NCBI GenBank assembly: GCA_014874455.1
Contig: JADBJL010000036.1
Coordinates: 1 to 51,825 of the forward strand
DNA from: Thermomicrobiaceae bacterium
GTDB taxonomy: Bacteria > Chloroflexota > Chloroflexia > Thermomicrobiales > Thermomicrobiaceae
Direction: 5' to 3'
DNA length: 51,825 nucleotides
Of the stretch, positions 15,799 through 17,513 are shown piece by piece (positions within the stretch are counted from its first letter, which is position 1; every line of letters starts with the position of its first letter). The translations under genes were made by a program, and so were the position numbers. The notes under the pieces are model-generated. The model did not search any database and had not been told where the DNA came from. It worked only from the letters and a program-made list of their open reading frames with translations.

Positions 15799-16151
15799 CT
15801 TCCCCTTGCTTGATGCGGCAGTCGTGTCCACCCGCCTGAAGTGCTTGCCGGCACGGCGCTGCTGCTCTCGTGCCCGCGAGGCTGCCGCCGTGAGCAGCGT
15901 GCCGATCGCTGGCCAGCACTGATAATAGGAGAGCCGGCCGCCGTTCGACGACCCGATCCCAGGCCAGGCAACCGGCAGCGAACAGCAGCAGGGCCAGCGC
16001 GAACTAGGGGAACGTGCGTGTTACGCTGGGTGACAGCCCTCCCATTGTTGCAGTACGAATGTCCCTCCAGAGCGAACACACGGGTGGGGACGCCTGATTT
16101 GCTAGGGGCGTCCCCGCTTGCTCTCTCGCACGCATGGCGCAAGGTAGCCAG
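15799..16151. other. Intergenic region upstream of the methyltransferase
   Basis: No gene is recognisable in these 353 nt. They hold a possible -10 box (TATTAT at 15927-15922, minus strand, no convincing -35) for the methyltransferase and the hairpin at 16086-16115 that follows the SurA-like gene. Confidence 0.5.
16086..16115 (-). terminator. Hairpin after the secreted-protein operon
   Basis: GGGGACGCC (16086-16094) and GGCGTCCCC (16107-16115) make a perfect 9-bp stem with a 12-nt loop, 36 nt after the stop of the SurA-like gene on the minus strand. No T-run follows. Confidence 0.5.
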
Positions 16152-16889
16152 CTACCGGTTGGCATTGGAGCAGAGTTCCCAGTAGCGTTGCAGGTAACCC
16201 AGCGCACCTTCGAGCGTCGCTGGGTCGGCAAGGTCAGGGCGAACCATAGTCACGCGCGCCCGGCCGATGATGCGGGCTTGGGCTTCCATCCAGGCTCGCT
16301 GGCGCTCGACTGGATCGGCGATGGCACCGGTCTCTGCTTCCCAGAGGCGCTGTGCCGCCAACTCCTGCCGCACCGTCGCCGGGTAGACCACCGTCCAGTA
16401 ATGCTCTTCACCGATCACGGCAATGTAGGCGGCCATCCGTGGGTCATCAACCTGCGGCGCCAGCGCTCGATCCTGTGCCACCCGCCGAGCCACCTCGTCG
16501 TCCGTCGGTACCAGACCACGACGCTGTGCCTCCGCCATGAGCGCACGATCGACGATGAGGCTGCCGAGCGCCGTGTTCTCGACGCCTGCTGACTCGATCA
16601 GGCGAGCGAACTCCTGGAGGAAGTCGGCTTGCAGCCCACCAGACGCCGCCTCTTGGCGCATGTAGTCGAGGTTTGCCTGGACGATGGCGATCCGCTCGGC
16701 AAGATCGGCGTTGGTGATTGGCAGGCCGTCGACCTAGGCGAGGACTGGACCGGGATCGCCGGCCCGCGCCTGCCCCGCCCGCTCGAGCTGGGCGACATCC
16801 GGCCGCTGGTCGGCGGTCACATGCGTGGCGACCAGCGCGCCTAGGAGTGCCAGGAGAGTCAATACCCCGAGAGCAGCAAATGGTCTCAT
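16152..16889 (-). pseudogene. SurA-like N-terminal-domain protein interrupted by an in-frame TAG
   Basis: Reading on the minus strand from ATG 16889 (ribosome site GGAGGT six bases before it) gives a signal sequence (MRPFAALGVLTLLALLGALV), a short linker, then TAG as codon 52 at 16736-16734, and directly on, in frame, VDGLPITNADLAERIAIVQ. That is the classic start of a SurA/PpiC-type N-terminal chaperone domain (normally V-x-G-x-P-I-T). The frame continues intact to the stop at 16152 (about 245 codons): DRALMAEAQRRGLVPTDDEVARRV is the usual 'lifetime-dependent' helix pair. There is no peptidyl-prolyl isomerase domain. One base change (for example TAC or CAG to TAG) explains the interruption. 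Internal initiation at ATG 16661 would give 169 residues without a signal. It follows the small secreted protein gene by 37 nt. Confidence 0.72.
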
Positions 16890-16926
16890 CAGGTGACCTC
16901 CGCTCTAACGCGGAATCTGCGTACCA

Positions 16927-17235
16927 TCACCATAGTGTCCACCGTCGATCATCCCCTACCCCGCCGTAACAGCCAGCGGCATCACAGAGCTGAAATGCCC
17001 ACACACCGCGATCCTGTCCAGAGACGTTGTTGCTGAACCCGCCGAGATAAGCGGGGTCAGTCGTATTGCCGCCGAAGAGCAGATCATCTGGTTGGATAAT
17101 GTAGCAGCAGCGATTCCATGCCCACCGTGGCACAACGATCTTCTGGGTTCCATTCCAGTATCCGATTACCGGTAGTGCCTGGAAGGACAAGACCGCTAGG
17201 ACAACGGACAAGAGCCGCAGCCGTCGCGACCACAT
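16927..17235 (-). CDS. Small secreted cysteine-containing protein, unknown
   Basis: A 102-residue protein I do not recognise. It begins with a basic N-region (MWSRRLRLL) and a hydrophobic core ending near ALPVIG, a plausible cleaved signal peptide, leaving a mature chain of about 75-78 residues. The mature part is rich in W, Y, G and N and contains four cysteines (a CC pair, then one in QLCD and one in AGCYGG), which could form two disulphides. Base composition here is visibly lower in GC than in neighbouring genes. A TTGACA promoter lies upstream (17318-17291). The SurA-like chaperone gene follows by 37 nt, suggesting that the chaperone once served this exported protein. Confidence 0.6.
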   Translation of the reverse strand: MWSRRLRLLSVVLAVLSFQALPVIGYWNGTQKIVVPRWAWNRCCYIIQPDDLLFGGNTTDPAYLGGFSNNVSGQDRGVWAFQLCDAAGCYGGVGDDRRWTLW

Positions 17236-17290
17236 CTAACCCCCCAATCGGTCAATCGCGGATTCCACGAACCACTAGCCGAGCGCTCCG

Positions 17291-17318
17291 ACTACAGATT
17301 ATCAGAGAGAGATGTCAA
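17291..17318 (-). promoter_or_regulatory. Predicted promoter of the secreted-protein operon
   Basis: Minus strand: a consensus -35 TTGACA (17318-17313), 16-nt spacer and TGTAGT (17296-17291); a GATAAT also lies inside the spacer. It sits 55 nt before ATG 17235. Confidence 0.5.
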
Positions 17319-17513
17319 GCATTCGACTGGTACCGCACGCTGGTCATGCCTGCATCCGGCTGCTGCCCATCCCGCGTCCCGGTGTATCCTTGGCCTCTGG
17401 GCGACAGAACGGAGCGTCCGAACCCCGGGCGAGGCACGTGGCCTTGGCATCTCAGAACGGGCATGTAACCCTGCTCCCCGCCTCTCGCCGATCGAGAGCA
17501 TCGGGAGAGATGC

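Follow-up and report, generated by a model that had tools for sequence, protein, structure and literature searches.

A gene for a secreted SurA-core-like protein in the window (the whole stretch of 51,825 nucleotides that was analysed) is interrupted by a single stop codon, which probably reflects a real nonsense mutation that has cost a dispensable accessory gene its function. The frame, on the minus strand at 16889-16152, comprises 245 codons; its translation begins with MRPFAAL, runs from GPVLA through the stop into VDGLPIT and ends with CSNANR. As the original prediction held, the only internal stop in this SurA-like gene is the TAG at 16736-16734, codon 52, a reading borne out by the translation and by a match to the Pfam profile PF13624 (SurA_N_3). 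The ribosome site and the signal sequence that had been described are present as well: GGAGGT (16896-16901) lies 6 bases 5' of the ATG, and the 51 codons ahead of the TAG (16737-16889) encode a signal-peptide-like N terminus and a linker that align with the corresponding part of the relatives' proteins.

Beyond the stop the frame retains the properties of a coding sequence. The part after the TAG on its own scores 37.2 bits against PF13624 (E 3.3e-09), and the frame with the TAG read through scores 42.8 bits (E 6.3e-11), both exceeding the curated cut-off of 27.2 bits. The codon-usage score after the TAG (0.215, as compared with 0.19 +/- 0.17 for real gene fragments) is normal for the genome, and this part retains 22 of the 29 positions at which seven homologues agree without exception. 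Since there is one fault in 245 codons and both the coding signal and the invariant residues are kept, either the break would be very recent or there has been no loss at all; a recent break appears the better of the two, and a protein that is still made the less likely.

Homologues were found in 8 of the 158 genomes of the class, namely the window's own, five Thermomicrobium genomes (G008, G011, G014, G018 and G019) and two more distant ones. Four of the five Thermomicrobium carriers are Thermomicrobium sp. SKW109, bacterium HR27, bacterium HR28 and Thermomicrobium sp. CFH 73360. When contigs were scanned with the protein alignment, four Thermomicrobium-type records matched, while a scan with a single protein as the query returned no match. 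Each of the five Thermomicrobium homologues is encoded by one uninterrupted frame, about 250 residues long, that aligns on both sides of the window TAG and has no stop at that place. This rules out a chance open frame, as these proteins align over their full length, the part before the TAG included, and it indicates that the interrupted frame was one gene. The idea of a single protein, which the original prediction would have given up had the relatives carried an unrelated upstream part, is thus upheld, and comparing the codon among relatives, as had been suggested, placed intact homologous copies in five genomes beside the interrupted one. The window protein shares 34-42% identity with the Thermomicrobium copies, and as the nearest homologue is only about 41% identical, silent sites are saturated.

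The likeness to SurA extends to the predicted fold. Modelled with a mean pLDDT of 83, an intact relative adopts the SurA core fold and superimposes on SurA (PDB 1m5y) with a Z score of 9.9 over 153 residues at an rmsd of 4.2 (VIA-align); ten further SurA-like entries follow before the scores fall sharply to Z 4.3. Foldseek on its own found nothing significant for the chaperone model, and the intact relative L003 scores 17.1 bits on PF13624, under the cut-off. No rotamase (parvulin isomerase) domain was matched in the window protein or its relatives, and the protein is too short to hold one; SurA proper carries one or two such domains, which the window gene does not. In the relative's model the stop falls within the core's first short strand. 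The residue concerned is variable rather than invariant, being R in three and L in two of the Thermomicrobium proteins and L or T in the two more distant homologues. Another genus of the family has more distant exported proteins (L105 3160-3885 and L106 1193-1927) that likewise consist of the SurA core only; their genes adjoin a pyridoxamine-oxidase-like gene (named by eye from the sequence) and not one for a small secreted protein. A further SurA-type gene (C88) elsewhere in the window's genome has no internal stop, so folding of exported proteins need not depend on the window copy.

As relatives differ in the residue at the stop, a functional protein could result whichever amino acid was inserted there, and suppression or programmed read-through of the TAG to a useful level would then yield the full-length product. 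The open, conserved frame downstream would suit this, as would the base directly 3' of the TAG, a G, which raises TAG read-through in E. coli (PMC11126739). Mean read-through of TAG reporters in that organism is, however, 0.01-0.03% at 37-42 degrees in rich medium (PMC11126739), and the decoding apparatus of the window's genome looks ordinary. The release factor 1 gene prfA is present above its profile cut-off, and none of the 43 tRNA genes found has the anticodon CUA; this set falls slightly short of complete, as it appears to lack Ile-GAU and one Ala tRNA, which probably went missing with an unassembled rRNA operon. No genome match to the pyrrolysine synthetase PylS passes the cut-off, and pyrrolysine was rejected because the weak, sub-threshold matches arise in control genomes too. 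TAG also closes 14 of the window's 33 long frames, including the SurA-like gene itself at its true end. Recoding of TAG across the genome is ruled out by these findings together: UAG recoding is marked by a CUA tRNA and by loss of release factor 1 or avoidance of TAG, and the genome exhibits neither. No relative has a stop at the aligned place, either. Useful read-through of this one codon is thus conceivable in principle only; read-through or recoding is unlikely, and we give the full-length protein made by suppression or programmed read-through very little credence. Still fainter is the prospect that the TAG is read under some condition, such that an exported chaperone would be made only when termination is weakened, with the variable position tolerating any residue. 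Read-through of that sort would count among rare regulated cases, and nothing that was found supports it.

Nor does a division into two functional products, a leader peptide and a cytoplasmic SurA core made by restart, seem at all probable. A 169-residue frame does begin at an ATG at 16661, but no ribosome site is seen there, the restarted protein would be without the core's first strands and the export signal, and the relatives have one continuous protein. If the stop is instead a nonsense mutation, as we favour, ribosomes would start at 16889 and halt at the TAG, leaving a 51-residue stub that amounts to little beyond the signal peptide. No well-placed restart would rescue the remainder, as the next in-frame ATG comes 24 codons after the TAG, is not preceded by a clear ribosome site and would give a protein that is not exported.

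The interrupted gene forms a two-gene cassette with the one ahead of it on the same strand, a gene for a small secreted Cys/Trp-rich protein of 102 residues (16927-17235), the C-terminal half of which matches the Thermomicrobium partner by sequence comparison, and every Thermomicrobium SurA-like copy follows a gene for a small secreted protein ending in RTWTLW or RTWNLW. The intact Thermomicrobium partner has about 170 residues, so that some 70 residues from the middle are missing in the window version. This partner (for example L038 5382-5891) has no match in Pfam or NCBIfam, and a pLDDT of 38.6 makes its predicted structure unusable. L038 5382-5891 and its homologues were seen only beside a SurA-core-like gene. 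Upstream lies TTGACATCTCTCT (17306-17318, minus strand), a promoter-like element common to the Thermomicrobium cassettes; a TTGACATCTCTCTCTG-TAATCT-like element precedes the cassette in the window and in L031, L032, L033, L039, L040 and L041, with an insertion in SKW109. The spacing of this element is unlike that of a usual sigma-70 promoter, and in L031 the element recurs at 2491-2503, apart from the cassette. The window thus keeps the promoter-like element, the small gene and the SurA-like gene in the Thermomicrobium order. From the gene pairing and the fold we infer that the intact relatives' protein most likely keeps its small Cys/Trp-rich neighbour foldable outside the membrane.

Flank comparison shows the cassette to lie in an accessory stretch (15817-17477) flanked by genes for a xanthine-dehydrogenase-like protein and a methyltransferase (both named by eye from the sequences). 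Two species of the same genus (93% and 88% DNA identity) have about 110-140 bp in its place, so that the flanking genes are joined directly and the cassette is absent at the site. The G+C content of the stretch is 56-69%, compared with about 70% or more in the flanks. In Thermomicrobium, too, a homologue of this dehydrogenase gene lies close to the cassette, which however sits at the opposite end of that gene, so the window cassette may have been gained or may have survived where others were lost. On the minus strand at 15832-16052 there may be a second broken small gene, with a signal- or membrane-type segment, FALALLLFAAGCLAWDRVV, that follows a TAG and precedes a frame change; a homologue of this frame was sought in the relatives and none was convincing.

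Breakage of the cassette is not confined to the window. In HR28 (L041) the partner gene has a TGA at a tryptophan that is conserved in the relatives, and the CFH 73360 copy (L040) combines a frame change with a TGA; in both genomes the SurA-like frame is uninterrupted. Two of the seven Thermomicrobium genomes gave no match, one of these two being only about half complete, and the cassette was not found in G016. Members of the cassette evidently break or vanish repeatedly, which on sequence comparison would make the cassette dispensable in the family and subject to loss piece by piece, and the window stop fits this pattern.

A sequencing or assembly error, with the gene intact in the organism, would likewise produce one fault only and leave the coding signal beyond it untouched, and the draft assembly (114 contigs, estimated contamination 4.6%) gives some room for it. 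Genes on the same contig that are shared with the two sister species show no internal breaks in real frames, the few stops listed in that comparison falling in frames taken as antisense or poorly matching. Such clean genes argue against a poor assembly, not against one wrong base; the independent reduction of the partner gene, which no single base error explains, also stands against an error, and we consider one improbable, if less so than read-through or restart. Of the three options that had been proposed, the nonsense mutation is favoured by the loss and breakage of the cassette and by the genome's ordinary machinery for termination at TAG. In this account a fairly recent, real mutation would have inactivated what was one gene, encoding an exported chaperone of the SurA-core type.

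The window gene would then be a clear case of a young pseudogene in a rare two-gene cassette, in all likelihood a gene broken in the usual manner and not a sign of novel decoding. As a by-product, the analysis brings to light a cassette that pairs an isomerase-free SurA core with an unnamed small secreted protein and that, in the genomes searched, is limited to Thermomicrobium and the window genome and is evidently decaying.

Compared with known systems, the window frame resembles the SurA core domain (PF13624; PDB 1m5y, 2pv3) in scoring above the Pfam cut-off and through the placement of the relative's model on SurA, and differs from SurA in having no parvulin isomerase domain, in an identity of 11% and in the stop that breaks the gene; at the level of sequence and model, nothing points to the BAM-type role of SurA for the window protein. 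With the Thermomicrobium cassettes (SKW109, HR27, HR28, CFH 73360 and G011) it shares the gene order and the promoter-like element, whereas their chaperone gene is intact and the window copy combines the stop with the shortened partner. From bacterial nonsense pseudogenes it differs in nothing unusual, as far as tested, and like them it presents one premature stop in an otherwise open, dispensable gene.
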